64,000 bases of DNA from an uncultured Lachnospiraceae bacterium (GTDB lineage Bacteria > Bacillota > Clostridia > Lachnospirales > Lachnospiraceae): NCBI GenBank assembly GCA_902797185.1, contig CADBRV010000032.1, positions 1 to 64,000 on the forward strand, read 5' to 3'. A program made the position numbers and the translations under genes. Under the pieces are notes generated by a model, which saw nothing but the letters and a program-made list of their open reading frames with translations, did not search any database and had not been told where the DNA came from. Within the stretch, counting starts at the first letter, position 1. Each line of letters starts with the position of its first letter. Below are positions 51,667-62,976 of this stretch, piece after piece.

Positions 51667-53776
51667 CCATCCAATCCTCTAAAATATTTTGTATTTCCGC
51701 AAGCTCCCGGCGGGACAAGTCCTGCAGCAGCATGCCATCCCTGCCTGGGATAAAAAGTGAAAGCCCATTTTTGCCTGTAAGGGAAAAATCCTTTTTCCCG
51801 CGGTTCGTACCGCAGAGCAGCGCATCTTCTCCCAGGACCCTTGCAAACAGGAAGACCCCGTCTTCCGCATAAAGCACCTGGCATCCTGCTTTCGCAAAAA
51901 AATGCCTCCTTTGTTTCCGAAGGTGTGCCAGGAGGAAGTAATGGTTTTTCAATCCCTTTTCTTCCCGCCCCCAGGGATAAGCCCCCCGGTTGAAGGGGTC
52001 CGAGAAGCCTTCCATGCCCGCCTCGTCCCCATAGTAAATACATGGTACTCCTGGAAGTATCATCTGCAGCAGGGATGCCATTTTTAACAGGCGTATCCCT
52101 TGGTGCCTCTCCTTTTCCGAAAGGAAAGCACCTGCCATCTCTTCCCTGGAATGAGGTTTTGCCTGTTTCCAGGCCAGTGCCGTAAGCGCCCGCACGCTGT
52201 CATGGGTCCCGAGCGGGTTCATCAGGCATTCCAGCACTTCCGGGGGGTAATTGCAGCAGACTTCGTCCACCGCGTCAGCCAGTTTTCCGGCATCCCGCTT
52301 CCGGATGTAGGAAATGATGGCATCCTTCCAAGGGTAATTCATGACAGAGTCCAGCTCCTGCCCCTGGAAATATTCCCGCCGGACGCCATAGGCAGCCTTG
52401 TTGGAAGCATCTTCCCAAACCTCGCCCAGGACGACGGCATCCTCCCTCTGGCTCTTAGCTGCCTTCACCAGCTTCTTTAAAAAGCCGTCCGGCAGTTCGT
52501 CCACCACGTCCAGGCGCCATCCGGCCGCTCCCAGCCGGATCCATTTGCGGACAATCCCCTCTTCCCCGAAAAGGTATTCCTGGAAAGAAGAGGAATCCTT
52601 ATTGACCGTGGGCAGTGTGTCGATCCCCCACCAGCAGCGGTATTTGCTGCCATCCGGGCTGAAAGAATACCAGTCCCGGTATGGGCTGCCTTCCCCCTGC
52701 CAGGCGCCTTTGGAAGGATAAATCCCATATTTGTTAAAATAGATGGAATCCGCCCCTGTATGGTTAAAGACGCCATCCAGCATGACGCTGATGCCGTTTT
52801 CCCCTGCTTCCTGGCAGAGCTTTTCAAATTCTTCCCGGGTCCCGAAAAGCCGGTCGACCTTCCCATAATCCCCAGTGTCGTATTTATGGTTTGAATAAGC
52901 CTCAAAGATCGGGGAGAGATACAGGCAGGTCACCCCTAATTTCTTAAAATATGGCAGCTTCTCCCGGATGCCGGCAAGGTTCCCTCCGAAAAAGTCATTA
53001 TTTAAGATCTCCCCGTGGGAATCCTGCTGCCAGGCCGGGACTTCGTCCCAATTGTCATGGAAAATAAGGGTCCTCTCCGTCGCATTATCAAAGCCTTCTC
53101 CTACGGGCAGGAAACGGTAGCGGCTCTTCGCCGGCTCATCCTTGCAGGCCTTACGCTCTTCCTGTGCCAGGGTGGCACGTCCGGCATTTCCTCCAGCCTG
53201 CTCCAGGCTTCCATAGCCGCCGTCAGGGCCCTGTCCCTGTACCGTGCCTGCCTGGCAGGAATAGCCTTGTTCCTGGGACCGGCCTGCTAAGCCGGCACTT
53301 TCTTTTTCCTCTGCCAGGCTTGCATCTGCATCTTCCCCGCCCCTGTAGAAGCGGTCCACAAATACATGGTAAAACAGCCCGCCCGGCAGGAATGCCGGCT
53401 CCTTGTATTCCCTCTGGTAAATGGTCAGCTGGAGGTCTTTCTTCTGCTTGAAATTGTCCGTGAAAAAAGCCTTCCTGCCATCCAGGGAAGAAAAATAGGT
53501 TCCGCCGCATCCGTCTATATCAAAATAATACCAGTAAAGCCCTATTGTCACCGCGGGGAATTGGCACACGTAAAGGTCCATCTCCCCCTCCATGCCTTCC
53601 CATTCCATGCCGGAACGGAAATAGGATTTTTCCTGGTCCAGGCGCAGGTTGAGATGCACCTCCATGGCCCCGGTTTCCCGCGGGACATAAAGGCGCATCT
53701 CCACTTCGCTGCCTCTGATGGCAGTACCGGTTTTTTCCCCGTAATGCCTGCCATCCGCGATTATCGTACATCTCAT
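51659..53776 (-). CDS. GH13 alpha-glucosidase/neopullulanase-like enzyme
   Basis: 705 residues, no signal peptide, so cytosolic. An N-terminal beta domain (about 1-125) precedes a GH13 barrel beginning FYHVFVDRFYRGG. The catalytic triad is Asp423 (GWRLDVVDE), Glu452 (VLGEVWED) and Asp526 (GTHDS). LDGVFNHTG is the first conserved region. The likely role is trimming glycogen or maltodextrin branches. About 70 residues (145-215) form a low-complexity Gln/Gly/Ala/Glu insertion after the first barrel strand. It overlaps glgP by four bases and the HD hydrolase by eight. Confidence 0.88.
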   Translation of the reverse strand: MRCTIIADGRHYGEKTGTAIRGSEVEMRLYVPRETGAMEVHLNLRLDQEKSYFRSGMEWEGMEGEMDLYVCQFPAVTIGLYWYYFDIDGCGGTYFSSLDGRKAFFTDNFKQKKDLQLTIYQREYKEPAFLPGGLFYHVFVDRFYRGGEDADASLAEEKESAGLAGRSQEQGYSCQAGTVQGQGPDGGYGSLEQAGGNAGRATLAQEERKACKDEPAKSRYRFLPVGEGFDNATERTLIFHDNWDEVPAWQQDSHGEILNNDFFGGNLAGIREKLPYFKKLGVTCLYLSPIFEAYSNHKYDTGDYGKVDRLFGTREEFEKLCQEAGENGISVMLDGVFNHTGADSIYFNKYGIYPSKGAWQGEGSPYRDWYSFSPDGSKYRCWWGIDTLPTVNKDSSSFQEYLFGEEGIVRKWIRLGAAGWRLDVVDELPDGFLKKLVKAAKSQREDAVVLGEVWEDASNKAAYGVRREYFQGQELDSVMNYPWKDAIISYIRKRDAGKLADAVDEVCCNYPPEVLECLMNPLGTHDSVRALTALAWKQAKPHSREEMAGAFLSEKERHQGIRLLKMASLLQMILPGVPCIYYGDEAGMEGFSDPFNRGAYPWGREEKGLKNHYFLLAHLRKQRRHFFAKAGCQVLYAEDGVFLFARVLGEDALLCGTNRGKKDFSLTGKNGLSLFIPGRDGMLLQDLSRRELAEIQNILEDWMDE

Positions 53777-56184
53777 CTGTATCTCTTAATGCCCCAGATC
53801 TCTTCCGCATAGGTCTTGATGGAGCGGTCAGCGGAAAAGATGCCTGCATGGGCAATGTTGCGCAGGGACTTTTTATACCATTCCTTCGGTTTTGCATAAT
53901 CAGCCCATGCCTTCTTATGGATATCCGCATAACTGTCAAAATCTGCCAGGCACATGTAGGGGTCCCCGCCATTAAGCAGGTACTGGTAAATGTCGGAAAC
54001 GTCCATGCCGCCTACCAGGCTCTTCAGGAAATCCACTGTGTCTTTCAGAAGCGGGTTCCTCTTATAGAAGATAAACGGGTCATACCCTTCCTTGCGAAGA
54101 CCTGTCACCTGGGGCTCGTCCATGCCGAAGATGTAGATATTGTCCCGTCCTACCGCTTCCGCGATCTCCATATTGGCGCCGTCCAGGGTGCCAATGGTCA
54201 AAGCGCCGTTAATCATCAGCTTCATGTTGCCGGTACCGGAAGCTTCCTTCCCGGCCAGGGAAATCTGCTCGGAAATATCGGCAGCAGGCATGATCCTTTC
54301 TGCCATGGTAACACTGTAATTTTCCAGGAAAATAATTTTCAGCTTTCCTTTTGCCACCGGGTCGTTATCAATCTCTTTCCCTAATGCCACGATCAGCTGG
54401 ATGATCTTTTTCGCCATGTCATAGCCCGGTGCGGCCTTGGCGCCAAACAGGTAAACCTGCGGCGGGATCTCCAGGGACGGGTCCGCCTTCAGCTGCAGGT
54501 AAAGGGAAGCGATATGCAGCGCGTTTAAAAGCTGCCTCTTATACTCATGGAGCCGTTTCACCTGTACGTCAAACAGGCTCGAAGGATCTACCGTCTCTCC
54601 TGTGAGTTTCAGGAGCTGTCCGGCAAAACGCTCTTTATTCTGCTTTTTTATTTCGGCAAGGCGTCCCAGCACCGAATCGTCCTCCGCATATTCCAAAAAG
54701 CGTATGAGCTTGGAAGCGTCTGAGCGGTAAGATGTGCCGATCGTATCATCCAGAAGGCCTGCCAGAAGAGGGTTTGCCTGGCACAGCCACCTGCGGTAAG
54801 CGATCCCGTTGGTCACGTTCATGAACTGCTGTGGGTCATCTTCATAAAAGTCTTTGAAAACTTCCTTTTCCAGGATTTCGGTATGCATGGCGGATACACC
54901 GTTCACCTTGTGGGAACCGATAATGGAAAGGTTGGCCATGCGCACCATGCCATGGGAAAGGATGGCCATGCGGTCGCATTTTTCCCAATTTCCTTCATTG
55001 CGCTGCCAGATATGCTCGCAGTACCTGCGGTTCAATTCTTCCATGATCTGGTAAATCCTGGGAAGGAGCCTCTGGATCAGGTCCTGGGGCCATACTTCCA
55101 GCGCTTCTGCCAGCACGGTATGGTTTGTATAAGAAACGGAATTTTTCACCAGGTAAAAAGCATGGTCCCAGGAAAGATGGTATTCATCCATAAAGATGCG
55201 CATGAGTTCCGGGATCACCATGGCCGGATGTGTATCATTAATATGGATGGCATTTTTCTCCGCGAAATTATCCAGGGTATGGTAAAGCTCCATGTGACGG
55301 CGGATGATGTCCTGGGCAGAGGCGGATACCAGGAAATACTGCTGCTCCAGGCGGAGCATTTTCCCATCCGGCGTATTATCAGCAGGATAAAGCACTTTCC
55401 CGATCAGGTCGGCGTTTACACTCTTTTCTACCGCCTGCATGTAATTCCCGTTGGAAAACATTTCCATGTCAAAACTGTCTGACTCCCGGGGGCGCCAGGT
55501 ACGAAGACAGGCTTCCCCTGTATTGCCATTGCCGGAAATGACCATGTCATAAGCGATGGCTTTTACGGAATCATAACCGGTATGCACCACTTCCAGCCCG
55601 TTCTGGGTCCAGTTTTCTTCCAGGCGGCCTCCGAATTTAATTTCAAAAGCCCGGTCTGAGCGGGGCGACAGCCAGACGCTGCCTCCGGGAAGCCATACAT
55701 CCGGCAGTTCCACCTGCCAGCCGTCTACGATCTTCTGGCGGAACAGCCCGAATTCATAACGGATGGTATAGCCCATGGCCGGATATCCCGCGGAAGCCAG
55801 CGCGTCTAAAAAGCAGGCTGCCAGCCTGCCCAGGCCGCCATTGCCAAGGCCCGCGTCGGACTCCTCTTCGAAGATGTCCTCCAGGTCAAAGCCGTATTTC
55901 TTTAAGGCCTTTCCATACGTTTCCAGCTCTCCCAAATTGTAAAGGTTATTTTTCAGCGAACGCCCCAGGAGGAATTCCATACAGAGGTAATAAACCCTCT
56001 TTGCCCCTTTCGCGTCGATTTTCTCACGAAAATCCTTCCGCTTTTCCAGCAGCTGGTCCCGGACGGTAATGACCGCTGCCTGGTACATCTGTTTACGGGT
56101 CGCTTTCTGAGGGGTTATGGAAAACATCCTTGCCAGGGCTTTTTCAATCCGTTCCTGGGCTTCCTTGATCGTCATTTTAGCCAT
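53773..56184 (-). CDS. glgP: Glycogen/maltodextrin phosphorylase
   Basis: An 803-residue GT35 enzyme releasing glucose-1-phosphate from glycogen. EFLLGRSLKNNLYNLG is near the N-terminus, GNGGLGRLAACFLDS-like residues bind substrate, and the PLP-binding Lys655 is in ASGTGNMKLMINGAL followed by GTLDGANMEI. The length is typical. It starts a unit with the GH13 gene, the HD hydrolase and feoB. An element with two module B copies separates it from glgA upstream. Confidence 0.96.
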   Translation of the reverse strand: MAKMTIKEAQERIEKALARMFSITPQKATRKQMYQAAVITVRDQLLEKRKDFREKIDAKGAKRVYYLCMEFLLGRSLKNNLYNLGELETYGKALKKYGFDLEDIFEEESDAGLGNGGLGRLAACFLDALASAGYPAMGYTIRYEFGLFRQKIVDGWQVELPDVWLPGGSVWLSPRSDRAFEIKFGGRLEENWTQNGLEVVHTGYDSVKAIAYDMVISGNGNTGEACLRTWRPRESDSFDMEMFSNGNYMQAVEKSVNADLIGKVLYPADNTPDGKMLRLEQQYFLVSASAQDIIRRHMELYHTLDNFAEKNAIHINDTHPAMVIPELMRIFMDEYHLSWDHAFYLVKNSVSYTNHTVLAEALEVWPQDLIQRLLPRIYQIMEELNRRYCEHIWQRNEGNWEKCDRMAILSHGMVRMANLSIIGSHKVNGVSAMHTEILEKEVFKDFYEDDPQQFMNVTNGIAYRRWLCQANPLLAGLLDDTIGTSYRSDASKLIRFLEYAEDDSVLGRLAEIKKQNKERFAGQLLKLTGETVDPSSLFDVQVKRLHEYKRQLLNALHIASLYLQLKADPSLEIPPQVYLFGAKAAPGYDMAKKIIQLIVALGKEIDNDPVAKGKLKIIFLENYSVTMAERIMPAADISEQISLAGKEASGTGNMKLMINGALTIGTLDGANMEIAEAVGRDNIYIFGMDEPQVTGLRKEGYDPFIFYKRNPLLKDTVDFLKSLVGGMDVSDIYQYLLNGGDPYMCLADFDSYADIHKKAWADYAKPKEWYKKSLRNIAHAGIFSADRSIKTYAEEIWGIKRYR

Positions 56185-56450: not shown

Positions 56451-56550
56451 ATATTTCCTATCTTATCTTGTGTAAGCCTGCTTTGTACGGTATGTACTGC
56501 AGGGGCTCTACGGATATTTTTCCTATCTTATCCTGTATATCCCTGCTTGT
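56451..56550. repeat. Pair of 36-bp direct repeats past glgA
   Basis: ATATTTCCTATCTTATC-TTGT...CCTGCTTTGT (56451-56486) recurs as ATATTTTTCCTATCTTATC-CTGT...CCTGCTTGT (56514-56550), about 63 bases apart. The second copy ends at the glgA stop codon. A GTGCCAC/GTGGCAC hairpin lies just beyond (56409-56436). No function is recognised. Confidence 0.65.
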
Positions 56551-58658
56551 CAAAAAGAAACCAGCTCCCGGTACATACCCTCATATTCGGCAGCCGACTT
56601 CTTCCAGCTAAAATCGATCCCCATGGCATATTTCTGGAGGTTCGTCCAATCCGGCTTGTCCTGGTAAAGGGCCAGTGCACGCCCAACCGCGTCTTTTAAC
56701 TGGAAGGCGTCCACATCCCGGAACGTAAATCCGTTCCCTTCTCCCAGGCTGCAGTCCTTGATAGAATCGCTAAGGCCGCCGGTTTCCCGTACTACAGGGA
56801 TGGTGCCATAACGGCAGGCAATCATCTGTGCCAGGCCGCAGGGCTCCGAAATGGATGGCATCAGGAAGATGTCGGATCCTGCATAAATCCGATGGGACAA
56901 GCCCTGGTTAAACATGATATTGACCGCGATCTTGTCCGGATAGCGTCCCTGCAGGTAACGGAAATAATCCTCAAAAGCGATTTCCCCGGTCCCAAGCACT
57001 ACAACCTGGACCCTTCCCTGCAGCAGCTGCTCCATGATGTCACGGATGAGGCCGATGCCCTTCTGCCCCACCAGGCGGGATACGATGGCGATGATCGGGA
57101 TATCCGGTTCTTTCGGCAGGTTCATAAGCTCCTGCAGGTTTTCCTTGCAGGCTGCCTTGCCGGAGAGGTCCTCTGCAGAAAAGTTCCTGGCGATCTCCGG
57201 ATCGGTCTGTGGATCATAAACGCCTGTAGCAATGCCATTCAGGATCCCTCTGAGCTTAAAGCTGTTGCGGCGGATGATGTCTTCCATGCCTTCCGCGTTC
57301 TGCCCGTCCAGAAGCTCCTTGGCATAAGTGGGGCTTACCGTGGAAACCAGGTTGCTGGTCTCGATGGCGCCTTTCATCAGGTTGATGCAGCCATGGTATT
57401 CCACATATGAGCCTGCTTCCGGGGGGAGGTCGAAGACATCCCCCAAAATAGCCAGGTCGTACTGTCCCTGATAGGCAATGTTGTGGATCGTAAATACGCT
57501 CTTAAAACCATAGTGATAGGAAACGGTATTATAAATCGGGACCAGGGCCGTCTGCCAGTCATTGGCATGGACGATGTCCGGATAAAAATCCAGCTGCCCG
57601 ATGGAATCCATGACTGCCTTGCAGAAGAAAGCATACCTTTCCCCGTCGTCGTAATAGCCATAAAGCCCTTCCCTGCCGAAATAATATTCATTATCTACAA
57701 AGTAGTAGGTGACATCATTCTTCTTCAGTTCGAACAGACCGCAGTACTGGCTCCTCCAGGCTACCTTTACGTAGAACCATTTCAGGAAGGTGCACTGGTC
57801 CTTCCATTCCCTGGGGATATCCCGGTAATAAGGCAGGATCACTCGGACATCCAGCTTCCTGTCCTTTGCCAGCGCTACCGGGAGGGACCCCGCTACTTCC
57901 CCTAAACCGCCTGTGCCAGCGAAAGGCTGTACCTCAGGAGAAACAAAAAGCAGCTTTACCTTCTTTTCCTCTTGTCCTGCCATGCCTGTCCCTTCTTTCT
58001 GTGTGCCTGTCTCTTTATTCCCAGCCTTCTTTCCAGAACTTTCCATCCCGGATGGCTTTGTTTCCGCTTTCTCTGGAGAAGCTTTTTTCACTGCTTTCTT
58101 CGGGGCTGCCTTCTCCTCTGCCTGCTTTGCGGGAGCTTTCTCCTCTGCCTTTTTTACAGGCGGCTTCTTAGCCGCCGTCTTCCTTGCCCTGGCTTTCGCA
58201 GGGGCTTTCTTTTTCGTGGTTTTGGCAGCAGCTTTCTTTACCGGTTTTTCATCCTCTTTCGCAGCAGCCTTCTTTTCCGGCTCTTCAACGGCATCCTTCT
58301 TCTCGGGCTTTTCAGCAGCAGCTTTCTTTTCCGGCATCTGCGGTACTTCAGCCGGGACTTTCTTCTCCGGCTTCTCCAGCACTTCCTGCCTCCTGCGCAC
58401 TTCACCCGGAACCTTTTTCTCCGGCTTCTCCAGCACTTCCTGCTTCCTGCGCACTTCGCCCGGTACCTTTTTCTCCGGCTTCTCCAGCACTTCCTGCTTC
58501 CTGCGCACTTCGCCCGGTACCTTTTTCTCCGGCTTCTCCAAAATTTCTTTCTTTTTATCTGCTACGATCTGCCTGCTTTCGGTCTTCTCAGCAGCCGTTT
58601 TTGTTCCTGCCTCAGCGGAAGTTTTTCCTTTCGCCGCAGGGCTTTTTCTTTCAGCCAT
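56550..58658 (-). CDS. glgA: Glycogen synthase with a long repeat-rich basic N-terminal tail
   Basis: 702 residues, against about 480 for normal GlgA. Residues 232-702 are a complete GT5 ADP-glucose glycogen synthase: LLFVSPEVQPFAGTGGLGEVAGS, HANDWQTALVP, SRLVGQKGIGL and SEPCGLAQMIACRYG. Residues 1-231 are low complexity. Four 18-residue repeats (37-96; EVLEKPEKKVPGEVRRKQ) are followed by a Lys/Ala/Pro-rich region with KKAPAKARARKTAAKKP, like a histone H1 tail. The start at 58658 has AAGGAGG six bases upstream and is in frame through the tail, so the tail is really part of the protein. It lies between glgD and glgP. Confidence 0.93.
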   Translation of the reverse strand: MAERKSPAAKGKTSAEAGTKTAAEKTESRQIVADKKKEILEKPEKKVPGEVRRKQEVLEKPEKKVPGEVRRKQEVLEKPEKKVPGEVRRRQEVLEKPEKKVPAEVPQMPEKKAAAEKPEKKDAVEEPEKKAAAKEDEKPVKKAAAKTTKKKAPAKARARKTAAKKPPVKKAEEKAPAKQAEEKAAPKKAVKKASPEKAETKPSGMESSGKKAGNKETGTQKEGTGMAGQEEKKVKLLFVSPEVQPFAGTGGLGEVAGSLPVALAKDRKLDVRVILPYYRDIPREWKDQCTFLKWFYVKVAWRSQYCGLFELKKNDVTYYFVDNEYYFGREGLYGYYDDGERYAFFCKAVMDSIGQLDFYPDIVHANDWQTALVPIYNTVSYHYGFKSVFTIHNIAYQGQYDLAILGDVFDLPPEAGSYVEYHGCINLMKGAIETSNLVSTVSPTYAKELLDGQNAEGMEDIIRRNSFKLRGILNGIATGVYDPQTDPEIARNFSAEDLSGKAACKENLQELMNLPKEPDIPIIAIVSRLVGQKGIGLIRDIMEQLLQGRVQVVVLGTGEIAFEDYFRYLQGRYPDKIAVNIMFNQGLSHRIYAGSDIFLMPSISEPCGLAQMIACRYGTIPVVRETGGLSDSIKDCSLGEGNGFTFRDVDAFQLKDAVGRALALYQDKPDWTNLQKYAMGIDFSWKKSAAEYEGMYRELVSF
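58371..58549 (-). repeat. 54-bp tandem repeats in the glgA tail
   Basis: Three near-identical 54-bp units (58371-58424, 58425-58478, 58479-58532) plus a partial fourth. Differences between units are mostly single, often silent bases, pointing to recent duplication. Each unit encodes 18 residues. Confidence 0.95.
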
Positions 58659-58740
58659 CTGCAACCTCCTTATGATGTACTCCCTTAAAAAGCAGAGGCT
58701 GCGTCTTTGTATCCAGCAAAAATACGCAGCCCCATTGGCC

Positions 58741-59859
58741 TTATAATACAGATCCCAGGGAAATGAAGAACGGATATCCTTCACATCCGGAAATCGTCCT
58801 GCCCTTGCGGACAAAGACATTTTTCTCGGTCACAATATAATTCAAATCGGCGCCGCTCTCAATGATGTTGTCCTGCAGGATCACGCTGTTGCGGACAACC
58901 GCCCCTTCATCCACCCGGACGCCACGGAACAGGACGGAGTTTTCCACCACCCCGTCGATGATGCATCCATCGGAAATCAGGGAATTGGTCACTCTGGAAT
59001 GCTCCCCGTAAATTGTGGGTGCCGAGTCCTTGACCGTGGTATAAACCGGCGAGCCTTCCTTTTCGAACAGCTCCTTGCGGACGCTGGACTGCAGCAGGTC
59101 CATGTTGCCCATCCAGTAATCTTCCAGGGAAGCAATCCCCCTCAGGTACCCTTTGAATTCATAAGTCTTGACATCCACCAGGCCCAGGTAATGGGGGAGG
59201 ATCTCCCTGCCGAAGCTCTTATACCCATATACCAGGGAATCGTCAATCATGTCCAGGAGGACCTGCCTCTTGATGACATACAGGTTAAGCCCGTAATTCA
59301 TCGTCCCCTGCAATTCCTCATGGCTCTTTACCCTTTCCAGGGCGCCATCGTCCCCGACCATGAATTCCAGGCTGAACTTCGTCCGTTTTCGAAGGAACGT
59401 GATCCTCTTATATGCCGCCGTAATGTCTGCCCCGGATTTCTCATGGTATCTCAATATCTCATCATAAGGGATATTGGCCAAAAGGTCCGAATCGGAAAGG
59501 AGGATATTGTCCGCCACCGTATTTTCCACATAACGCCTGGAATTTTGAAGCGCTTCCAGCCTGTTGGTGTAAAGCGGCCCGCTTCCTGCTTCCACAAACG
59601 GGGAAATAATCGTGACTCCTCCGTTCTTGCGGTCCAGGTCCCAGCTCTTGCCGGCTCCCACATGTTCCATCAGGCTGTGGTACTTGGTCTTTGTGATGAT
59701 GCCCACCTGCTCAATCCCTGCATTGGTCATGCTGGAAAGGACAAAATCGATCATCCGGTACCTGGCAGCAATCGGTACAGACGCCATGGTGCGCACCTTG
59801 GTCAGTTCCGGAAGCAGCTGGTCATGGACATTTGAAAAAACAATTCCTGCTGTCTTCAT
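58741..59859 (-). CDS. glgD: Glucose-1-phosphate adenylyltransferase, GlgD subunit
   Basis: 372 residues of the regulatory GlgD type. The start TAGIVFSNVHDQLLPELTKVR lacks the GGxGTRL loop of catalytic GlgC, as GlgD proteins do. ARYRMIDFVLSSMTNAGI, SWDLDRKNGGVTI and a C-terminal left-handed beta-helix (VVENSVLFRGVRVDEGAVV) are present. Firmicute GlgD binds GlgC and raises its activity. It starts one base after the glgC stop codon. Confidence 0.94.
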   Translation of the reverse strand: MKTAGIVFSNVHDQLLPELTKVRTMASVPIAARYRMIDFVLSSMTNAGIEQVGIITKTKYHSLMEHVGAGKSWDLDRKNGGVTIISPFVEAGSGPLYTNRLEALQNSRRYVENTVADNILLSDSDLLANIPYDEILRYHEKSGADITAAYKRITFLRKRTKFSLEFMVGDDGALERVKSHEELQGTMNYGLNLYVIKRQVLLDMIDDSLVYGYKSFGREILPHYLGLVDVKTYEFKGYLRGIASLEDYWMGNMDLLQSSVRKELFEKEGSPVYTTVKDSAPTIYGEHSRVTNSLISDGCIIDGVVENSVLFRGVRVDEGAVVRNSVILQDNIIESGADLNYIVTEKNVFVRKGRTISGCEGYPFFISLGSVL

Positions 59860-59860
59860 T

Positions 59861-61072
59861 TCATTCTTTCCTTTCCAAAGAAGGCACGTCCTCTTCCTGG
59901 ATCGTCCCTGCAGCTACCCTGCCGCCTTCTCCTATCAAAACATTTTCCGCAACCACGGTGATCTTCCCGGAGGCTTTTTCCCGTTCCCCTCCGACGAAGG
60001 CACCCTCCTGCACATTTACATTATGGTCCAGGATCGAATAAAATACATTTGCGTTCTCTCCTACCTGGCACTCCGGGAAGATGACGCTGTCTTTCACTAC
60101 CGCTCCTTTTTCTACATGGACGCCGGCAAACAGGACGCTGTTTTCCACGGTCCCGTCGACTTCACAGCCCTCGGCGATGATGGAATGGGTGATCCTGGCA
60201 TTTTTCCCGATATAATGGGGGTGTTTCTCATTATGCCGGTAATAGATCTTCCAGAAGGAGTCATCTAGGTTCAGGCCGTTTCTCCGGTTCAAAAGGTCCA
60301 TATTGGCTTCCCAAAGGGAAGAAAGTGTCCCCACATCCTTCCAATAACCTTCAAATTCATAGGCATACATGCCGCAGCCATCCCTGAGCATGGCCGGGAT
60401 TACGTTCTTGCCGAAATCATTGTCCGAAGACGGGTCCTGCTCGTCCTGCTCCAGGTATTTTTTCATCATGTCATAGCTGAAGACGTAAATCCCCATGGAA
60501 GCCTTCGTGCTGGTCGGATGGGGCGGTTTCTCTTCAAAATCCGTAATGCGTCCTTCCTCATCCGTGGTCATGATGCCAAAGCGGGGTGCCTCTTCCAAGG
60601 GTACATCCATGACGGCGATCGTACAGTCTGCGCCTTTCGCGATATGGGCATCCAGCATCTTGCCGTAATCCATCTTGTAAATATGGTCACCGGAGAGGAT
60701 CAGCACGTATTTTGCCTTGTATTTCTCAATGAAATGCAGGTTCTGGTAAATGGCATTGGCAGTCCCTTTAAACCAGTCGCTTCCGGAATTTTTCTGGTAA
60801 GGGGGAAGCACGTGCGCCCCGCCCTGGTTCCGGTCCAGATCCCAGGGCTGCCCGTTGCCAATGTAATCATTTAATTCCAAAGGCTGGTACTGGGTCAGTA
60901 CCCCTACCGTGTCAATCCCTGAATTGGTACAGTTGGACAGCGGGAAATCTATGATCCTGTATTTCCCTCCAAAATAAAGAGCCGGTTTCGCGATTTTCTT
61001 CGTAAGTGGATACAGCCTGCTTCCCTGCCCGCCGGCCAGAAGCATCGCTACGCATTCCTTTCCTACTGGCAT
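59861..61072 (-). CDS. glgC: Glucose-1-phosphate adenylyltransferase, catalytic GlgC subunit
   Basis: A 403-residue enzyme making ADP-glucose. The nucleotide loop [14 protein letters not shown] is at 11-24, [17 protein letters not shown] follows, then [17 protein letters not shown] and the C-terminal beta-helix ([18 protein letters not shown]). It pairs with glgD directly downstream; the two ADP-glucose subunits are expected to form a mixed tetramer. It starts 26 bases after glgB. Confidence 0.96.
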
Positions 61073-61098: not shown

Positions 61099-62976
61099 CT
61101 ATCTGAGCACAATCCCGCCTAAAGGCGGCAGTGTCAGTTCCACATGCTGGCTGCCCTTTCCATCCGGCACAGGCCTTAGCTCTTCTTCATTAAGCACTCC
61201 ACTGCCCCCGAATTCTGCGGCATCCGTATTAAAAATCTCTTTGTACTTTTTCTTCCTGGGCACCTGCACCTGGTAGCGGTCCCTCTGCACCGGCGCAAAA
61301 TTGATGATGAAGATCAGTTCCCTGCCGCTTTTGGCGATGCGCCGGTAAGAAATAATATTCCTTTCCCGGTCATCCGGATCAATCCATTGGAACCCTTCCC
61401 AGCCCAGGTCCTGCTCCCACATTTCCTTGTGGCGCAGGTAAAAATGGTTGGCCGCTTTTACATATTCCCGGGTCTTCCTGTGCATGTCATAGTCTAAAAG
61501 CAGCCAGTCCAGCTCCTTTTTGTAATCCCATTCTATGAACTGCCCGAACTCGCTCCCCATAAACAGTAGCTTTTTTCCCGGCATGGAAAGCATGTACAAA
61601 AGGAACCCCCTAAGGCCGGCAAACTTCTGCTCATATTCACCCGGCATCTTGTTTAAAAGAGATCCCTTGCCATGGACCACCTCGTCGTGGGAAATCGGCA
61701 GGATAAAGTTTTCCGAAAACGCATACATAAGAGGGAACGTCAGTTTCTCATGCTGGTATTTACGGAAATACGGGTCTGTCTTGATATAGGACAAAGAGTC
61801 ATTCATCCAGCCCATATTCCATTTCAGGTGGAAGCCCAGCCCTCCTACGGAAGGCGGCTGCGTAACCAGCGGCCAGGCCGTGGATTCTTCCGCGATCATC
61901 AGCGCACCCGGCACTTCGACGCCTACCGCATGGTTTAATTTCTGCAGGAACGCCCTCGCTTCCATGTTTTCCCTGCCGCCCTCTTTGTTGGGGCGCCACT
62001 CTCCGTCCTTACGGTCATAATCCAGGTAAAGCATGGCGGCTACCGCGTCCACCCTAAGGCCGTCCACATGGTATTCCTTCAGAAACATCATGGCGCTGGA
62101 AACCAGGAAAGACTGGACCTGCGGCTTCCCAAAATCAAAAGCCATGGTGCCCCATCCCTTATGCTCCCGTCTCAGCGGGTCCGGGTCTTCATAAAGGCAG
62201 GTCCCGTCAAAACGTGCCAGTGCGAAATCATCTTTCGGGAAATGGGCCGGCACCCAGTCCACGATCACGCCCATGCCTGCCCGGTGGGCCGCATTGACGA
62301 AATAGGCGAACCCGTCCGGCGTCCCATAACGGCTGGTCACGGAAAAATACCCGGTGGCCTGGTAACCCCAGGAACCATCAAAGGGGTATTCCGTCACCGG
62401 CATCAGCTCCAAGTGGGTATAACCCATTTTCTTCGCGTAAGGCACCAGTTCCTTTGCCAGCTTATGGTAATCAAAATAATTGCCATCTTCGTAGCGGCGC
62501 CAGGAGCCTAAATGTACCTCGTACATGTTGATCGGGGTTTCCATAAAAGGCTTTTCGCCCCGCTTCTCCATCCATTTCCCGTCCGACCATTTGAATTTCC
62601 CTTCTGGAAAATAGACTTTGGACGCGGTGGCGCCCTCCGTTTCCGAATGGAAGGCATAGGGGTCCGCCTTTAATTTAAAGGTCCCGTCCTTCTGGGTGAT
62701 GCCATATTTGTAATTGGAGAACTCCTCCACACCTGCGATGAACTTTTCAAAGCACCCGTCCTTTGTCTTTTTCATGGGAGCCTGGTCCGGGTCCCAGTTG
62801 TTAAAATCCCCTACGACAGAAACCTTCTCGGCATTAGGCGCCCATACGCGGAAAAGTACTCCTTCTTTTCCGCCCCGTACTTCCTTATGGGAACCGAAAA
62901 TATGGTAAGCGCTGTAATTTTCCCCCGAATGGAACAGCTCTAATTGCTTTTTCAGGCTAAGTTTTGAATCGGCCAT
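61099..62976 (-). CDS. glgB: 1,4-alpha-glucan branching enzyme
   Basis: A 625-residue GH13 enzyme with a CBM48 module (about 40-130, [20 protein letters not shown]). The catalytic Asp310 is in [15 protein letters not shown], Glu363 in [10 protein letters not shown], and the third acid in [12 protein letters not shown]. It adds alpha-1,6 branches to glycogen. It is the first gene of the glycogen synthesis unit and has a promoter directly upstream. Confidence 0.97.

Follow-up and report, generated by a model that had tools for sequence, protein, structure and literature searches.

Lysine-rich disordered tails on clostridial glycogen synthases and their possible role in glycogen tethering

The glycogen operon and its tailed synthase

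The window, i.e. the whole 64,000-nt stretch of DNA from an uncultured Lachnospiraceae bacterium that was analyzed here, carries, on its minus strand, the genes of a glycogen operon in the order glgB, glgC, glgD, glgA and glgP (Table 1). The names of the four neighbours of glgA are those that we presume for the respective ORFs. The glgA gene is a single open frame that starts at the ATG at 58658, with CATAAGGAGGTTGCAG in front of it (duplex energy with the anti-SD -12.3 kcal/mol). Its product matches TIGR02095 with 528.5 bits (cut-off 328.45) over residues 235-699 and PF08323 with 242 bits. The onset of the GT5 domain, placed at about residue 232 by an earlier sequence-only reading of this DNA, agrees with both the Pfam match (residue 235) and the folded core predicted by AlphaFold (from about residues 231-234). 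Judged by these matches, the protein can be regarded as a clear GlgA of family GT5 with an ordinary enzyme part. It shares with bacterial GlgA the domain order, the motifs HANDWQT, TIHNIAYQG, SRLVGQKG and SEPCGL across the whole core, and the gene order glgB-glgC-glgD-glgA-glgP. In contrast to bacterial GlgA in general, it carries a 231-residue disordered cationic tail at its N-terminus and a glycine in place of the lysine of the KTGGL motif, as is the case throughout the tailed clade.

Table 1. Features of the glycogen operon and of glgA in the window (positions refer to the window)
Feature	Position	Strand	Basis
glgP, glycogen phosphorylase (presumed name), next gene downstream of glgA, without tail	53773..56184	minus	ORF list
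glgA, glycogen/starch synthase with N-terminal tail	56550..58658	minus	ORF and translation, 702 aa, TIGR02095, PF08323
Catalytic core of family GT5, spanning residues 232-702, with a net charge of about -12	56553..57965	minus	family matches; AlphaFold, most blocks pLDDT >90
Gly248 codon of the motif GTGGL (KTGGL)	57915..57917	minus	
Cationic tail with predicted disorder, residues 1-231, net charge +25	57966..58658	minus	composition; pLDDT 37-54, no secondary structure
Possible internal start, ATG codon 226 (MAGQEEKKVKLLFVS), SD-like AGAAAGAAGGG 5' of the ATG	57981..57983	minus	-9.9 kcal/mol
Histone-H1-like basic block, residues 141-170, KKAAAKTTKKKAPAKARARKTAAKKPPVKK	58149..58238	minus	net +10 in 20 residues
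In-frame tandem array of four 18-residue (54-nt) units, residues 37-108, with the consensus QEVLEKPEKKVPGEVRRK	58335..58550	minus	sequence; synonymous-biased differences
Shine-Dalgarno AAGGAGG, 6 nt 5' of ATG 58658	58665..58671	minus	duplex -12.3 kcal/mol
GC-rich hairpin in the gap between glgD and glgA, with a short run of U after it	58695..58733	minus	
Antisense open frame over the tail, 277 codons	57913..58746	plus	
glgD (presumed name), upstream of glgA, without tail	58741..59859	minus	ORF list
glgC (presumed name), upstream of glgA, without tail	59861..61072	minus	ORF list
glgB, branching enzyme (presumed name), upstream of glgA, without tail	61099..62976	minus	ORF list

The KTGGL lysine is present in most GlgAs and is not strictly defining. 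It is replaced by Ala, Gly, Ser, Val or Asn in all N-tailed sequences in which the motif was found and in about one third of the untailed ones. Its absence thus appears to be a clade variant that provides no ground for exclusion from the GlgA family. A functional link between the tail and the loss of this lysine was considered and rejected, since the loss is a feature of the clade and C-tailed GlgAs of the Flavonifractor type retain the lysine. Two further features flank or overlap the tail. The hairpin before glgA might act as an attenuator and reduce the expression of this gene, and its stability is no better than that of shuffled sequences (z -1). The antisense open frame is most likely a by-product of codons for Lys, Ala and Glu.

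Composition, translation and selection of the tail

The tail comprises 56 Lys, 39 Glu, 36 Ala, 21 Pro, 16 Val, 12 Gly, 11 Arg and 11 Thr, and is devoid of Phe, Trp and Tyr. With 67 basic and 42 acidic residues, it represents a polyampholyte. The sequence-only reading had described four 18-residue repeats and a Lys/Ala/Pro-rich stretch of histone H1 type, and both were recovered. Copy 1 of the repeat deviates at its start and copy 4 at its end, while the K/A/P block near residues 141-170 attains net +10 per 20 residues, with a clustering of positive charge not above that of shuffles (z 0.8). The AT-hook core RGRP and the variant RGRK are absent from the window tail. The same reading had considered the tail charged and probably disordered, in line with its net charge and with an AlphaFold model based on a 40-sequence alignment, in which pLDDT values of about 37-54 and an absence of helices and strands over roughly the first 230 residues precede core blocks mostly above 90; such low values fit disorder and by themselves are no proof of it. 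The tail forms no ordered contact in this model. Searches of the tail against Pfam families and PDB sequences returned no match, and a known domain was rejected on this basis; a whole-genome search matched only the tail itself, and a second copy in the genome was likewise rejected.

Translation of the tail had been proposed from the open frame and the AAGGAGG site, and this proposal gains support from the position of the site 6 nt upstream of the ATG, from a shuffling test in which none of 5000 randomized versions of the tail DNA stayed free of stops and from the synonymous bias among the repeats. The accompanying claim that no internal start carries a ribosome binding site does not hold: the ATG of Met226 (57983) follows an SD-like AGAAAGAAGGGACAGGC with a duplex energy of -9.9 kcal/mol, versus -12.3 kcal/mol at the main start, and initiation there would yield a GlgA of ordinary length. 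Purine-rich SD-like sites are common, and expected by chance, in coding DNA rich in Lys, Glu and Gly codons, and they recur within the tail coding DNA, e.g. at the GTG of codon 93 (score -10.3). Of 17 GlgAs with long N-tails, 13 lack a methionine near the junction. Both a long and a short form of GlgA may be present in the cell. At the level of sequence and structure model, the tail is a translated, probably intrinsically disordered N-terminal extension of an otherwise normal ADP-glucose glycogen synthase.

The copies of the repeat in the window differ by about 10 synonymous and 8 nonsynonymous changes, against a ratio of about 23:77 expected from the sites (one-sided binomial p 0.003), and those of the sister species G003 differ by 6 synonymous and 2 nonsynonymous changes (p 0.003, assuming the same 0.77); these p-values serve as guides only, as the numbers are small and the compared copies have common history. 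In close pairs of other tailed species, whose cores are 89-98% identical, the pN/pS of the tail is about 0.26-0.69, and its pN exceeds that of the core by a factor of about 3.5-13. Because the repeat differences are biased towards synonymous changes, pN/pS lies below 1 and tail pN lies above core pN, the tail evolves fast but as a protein.

Distribution of GlgA tails among Clostridia

Two assumptions of the sequence-only reading required revision after relatives had been searched. Ordinary GlgA was said to begin directly at the catalytic domain, which applies to most of the listed GlgAs in the sample of the family Lachnospiraceae, with open frames of 475-525 codons and no long tail, but not to the clade to which the window GlgA belongs. 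This other clade (50-65% identity) consists mostly of Oscillospiraceae and other Clostridia, and tails are common there. In addition, the tail is not unique to the window GlgA: many GlgAs of its clostridial clade bear N-terminal K/A/P/E/T tails of 25-228 residues. These include Catonella morbi with 215 residues, RUG067 with 193, a Peptococcaceae bin with 147 and many others with 25-134; as tail starts were chosen by SD strength, single entries may err (e.g. L006, in which the tail frame is open and a later start was picked). The tailed relatives resemble the window protein in enzyme clade, tail position and composition, and differ from it in repeat units, in length (25-215) and in the absence of an evident common tail sequence. 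Therefore, the tail is unusual in comparison to GlgA at large and not unusual within its clade.

Within the genus of the window genome, tails of 228, 87, 41, 14, 2 and about 0 residues were found, and a seventh genome (G006) encodes only a GlgA of another type (45% identity) without a tail. The tail of the sister species G003 contains about six copies of the 10-residue unit KKKEPAKIAS, compared to four 18-residue units in the window. The two sister species thus amplified different repeats, and the tail sequence turns over fast. A quick tree built from 117 GlgAs requires at least 10 changes between the states with and without a tail. As a further sign of convergence, tails also occur at the opposite end of the protein, namely in GlgAs of the Flavonifractor/Pseudoflavonifractor type (56-193 residues) and in the genomes G587 and G188. 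Six of the C-tailed GlgAs (L028, L031, L041, L042, L045 and L195) present an acidic, Pro/Ala-rich stretch and a Lys/Arg-rich tip at the very end. Two further observations concern gene organization. The genomes G007, G035, G041 and G049 contain two GlgA genes of different identity classes, and in G549 (L199) a GlgA is apparently fused behind a GlgB-like C-terminal part via the lysine-rich linker NKRTNKKGIKKNKRVLKGEKK, forming a 1161-codon frame.

Long tails were defined as N-terminal tails of at least 60 or C-terminal tails of at least 50 residues, and all 24 that are listed reach a net charge of +5 to +10 within 20 residues. For comparison, +5 is attained by 14% and +7 by 2% of 100-aa segments taken at random from the loci of these tails. 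The long N-tails are mostly evenly cationic, with a clustering of positive charge that is mostly not above shuffles, while the C-tails combine a proximal acidic/Pro spacer with a basic tip (z 2.4-5.3 in 5/7). The tails of some relatives are net neutral or negative overall. AT-hook-like cores were detected in 3/24 tails (RGRP in L119 and L014, RGRK in L002), and the AT-hook was accordingly rejected as a motif common to the tails. The clostridial GlgA tails form a fast-evolving, lysine-rich and aromatic-poor set that preserves composition and local positive charge, but not sequence.

A census of tails was performed by calling ORFs in the fetched loci and scoring terminal segments rich in K, A, P and E. 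An N-terminal tail was scored in 20/25 GlgA ORFs at tailed loci, a circular figure in that these loci were chosen by their GlgA tail, which does not apply to the zeros obtained for the other genes. No comparable tail was present at either end of GlgB (0/2), GlgC (0/15), GlgD (0/20) or GlgP (0/21) at tailed loci, i.e. in 0/58 in total, nor in any of 84 other neighbours. On these counts, the idea that such tails typify the operon or its neighbourhood as a whole was rejected. It was likewise rejected for the genome, of which 232 kb with 186 ORFs, those of the window among them, were sampled: a few short or mixed-charge ends and none comparable to the tail were found. Tails of like composition recur on GlgA at either end in many Clostridia and are found on none of the neighbouring glycogen enzymes, and the tail is therefore probably under selection.

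Possible functions of the tail

The most obvious interpretation of a tail that resembles histone H1 is a role in binding, as the sequence-only reading had suggested. What recurs on GlgA is a cationic disordered tail, and each step beyond this is one that we infer. The folded core would bind and extend glycogen, whereas the tail would serve for non-specific binding to a polyanion, most likely nucleoid DNA. The nucleoid would thereby tether the growing particles of glycogen along its length and keep them from being displaced to the poles, and each daughter cell would receive a share. This tethering of glycogen by the GlgA tail is the favoured mechanism, held tentatively with a probability of roughly one in three. 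It is placed first because cationic, flexible arms on storage-polymer proteins have parallels in AlgP, PhaF and PhaM and because glycogen is polar in Escherichia coli, for which nucleoid exclusion is the suggested cause (PMC4836754). The KPAA tail of AlgP resembles histone H1 and is required for the even spacing of polyphosphate granules, and the PhaF tail is homologous to it (PMC9239181). PhaM, PhaF and AlgP link granules to the nucleoid, and PhaF and PhaM bind both PHA granules and DNA (PMC13052382; PMC3556143).

The window GlgA shares with these proteins of PHA (PhaF, PhaM) and polyphosphate (AlgP) granules the association of a granule-related protein with a disordered, Lys/Ala/Pro-rich, H1-like tail. 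It differs in that the granule-binding part would be the synthase itself instead of a phasin-like or helical domain, and in that DNA binding has been demonstrated for those proteins and is predicted for the GlgA tail. Furthermore, the tails of PhaF and AlgP are C-terminal and more purely cationic, while that of the window GlgA is N-terminal. The difference in charge counts against a nucleoid tether: the window tail, with net +25, 42 acidic residues and a local block of +10 in 20, is far less cationic than AlgP (net +55 for the protein). The unclustered basic block, the missing AT-hook-like core and the net neutral or negative tails of some relatives point in the same direction, as do several species of the window's genus that manage with tails of 0-14 residues.

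A second possibility is a charged, hydrated arm that spaces or solubilizes the enzyme or the glycogen particles with no specific partner, so that only composition and, loosely, length matter. This possibility, which we hold to be doubtful, is in agreement with a composition that stays while the sequence turns over, lengths between about 0 and 228 residues in a single genus, many charged residues of both signs and the use of either protein end. Yet a pure bristle need not be cationic, and all long tails attain at least +5 in 20 residues, with the basic residues at the tip in most C-tails; the occurrence on GlgA only within the operon would also be left unexplained. Alternatively, the tail could gather GlgA with RNA in a condensate, or with GlgC, GlgB or GlgP as acidic partners, and ADP-glucose would then be made and used in one place. 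The net charges of GlgC (-17), GlgP (-11), GlgB (-6) and GlgD (-5) and the adjacency of the glg genes are compatible with such recruitment, but acidity is common to most cytoplasmic proteins, which renders the charge of these partners unspecific. A precedent for condensation is Rho of a gut bacterium, which is reported to condense through a disordered region (PMC10284900). We consider such a condensate or recruitment unlikely.

A tail of little function is less probable still. It could represent a tolerated, drifting repeat expansion or be largely bypassed by initiation at Met226, as the internal ATG with its SD-like site and the quick change of length within the genus might indicate. This is opposed by the synonymous bias in the repeats of two species and pN/pS below 1 in close pairs, by the like composition in many lineages and the confinement to GlgA, and by the lack of the junction methionine in most relatives. 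The remaining comparison is with plant starch synthase 2 (SS2), likewise a GT5 enzyme whose N-terminal region is long, variable and disordered, albeit from another lineage. In Arabidopsis, this unrelated region is predicted to be disordered, varies between species and is required for dimerization, and its removal results in a 47-fold higher activity (PMC6156364). That the clostridial extension similarly governs oligomerization or access to the active site is improbable, given similar tails at either end and their absence in close relatives, which argue against a conserved active-site contact, and the AlphaFold model, which lacks ordered tail contacts.

The sequence-only reading had also raised the case of a tail that is common and already described for this family. 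It is common in the clostridial GlgA clade, and no publication describing such GlgA tails was found in the open-licence literature. This class of Lys-rich tails on GlgA therefore appears to be undescribed in this literature, while the kind of tail is already known from other granule proteins. If nucleoid tethering applies, Clostridia might have repeatedly made glycogen synthase itself a nucleoid tether by means of H1-like tails at either end, which would add a third class of chromosome-positioned storage granules, with the synthase itself, and not a separate coat protein, as the positioning factor; this wider proposal is a speculative one. The placement and sharing-out of glycogen in bacteria have been little studied, and a 2025 review of organelle positioning treats PHA and polyphosphate tethers, with glycogen absent (PMC13052382). 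Since the tail is confined to one enzyme of the pathway and has been repeatedly gained or lost, at either end, natural pairs with and without it exist in one genus and make the question testable. The GlgA tail also provides a clear case of a metabolic enzyme with a disordered region whose composition, rather than its sequence, is preserved.
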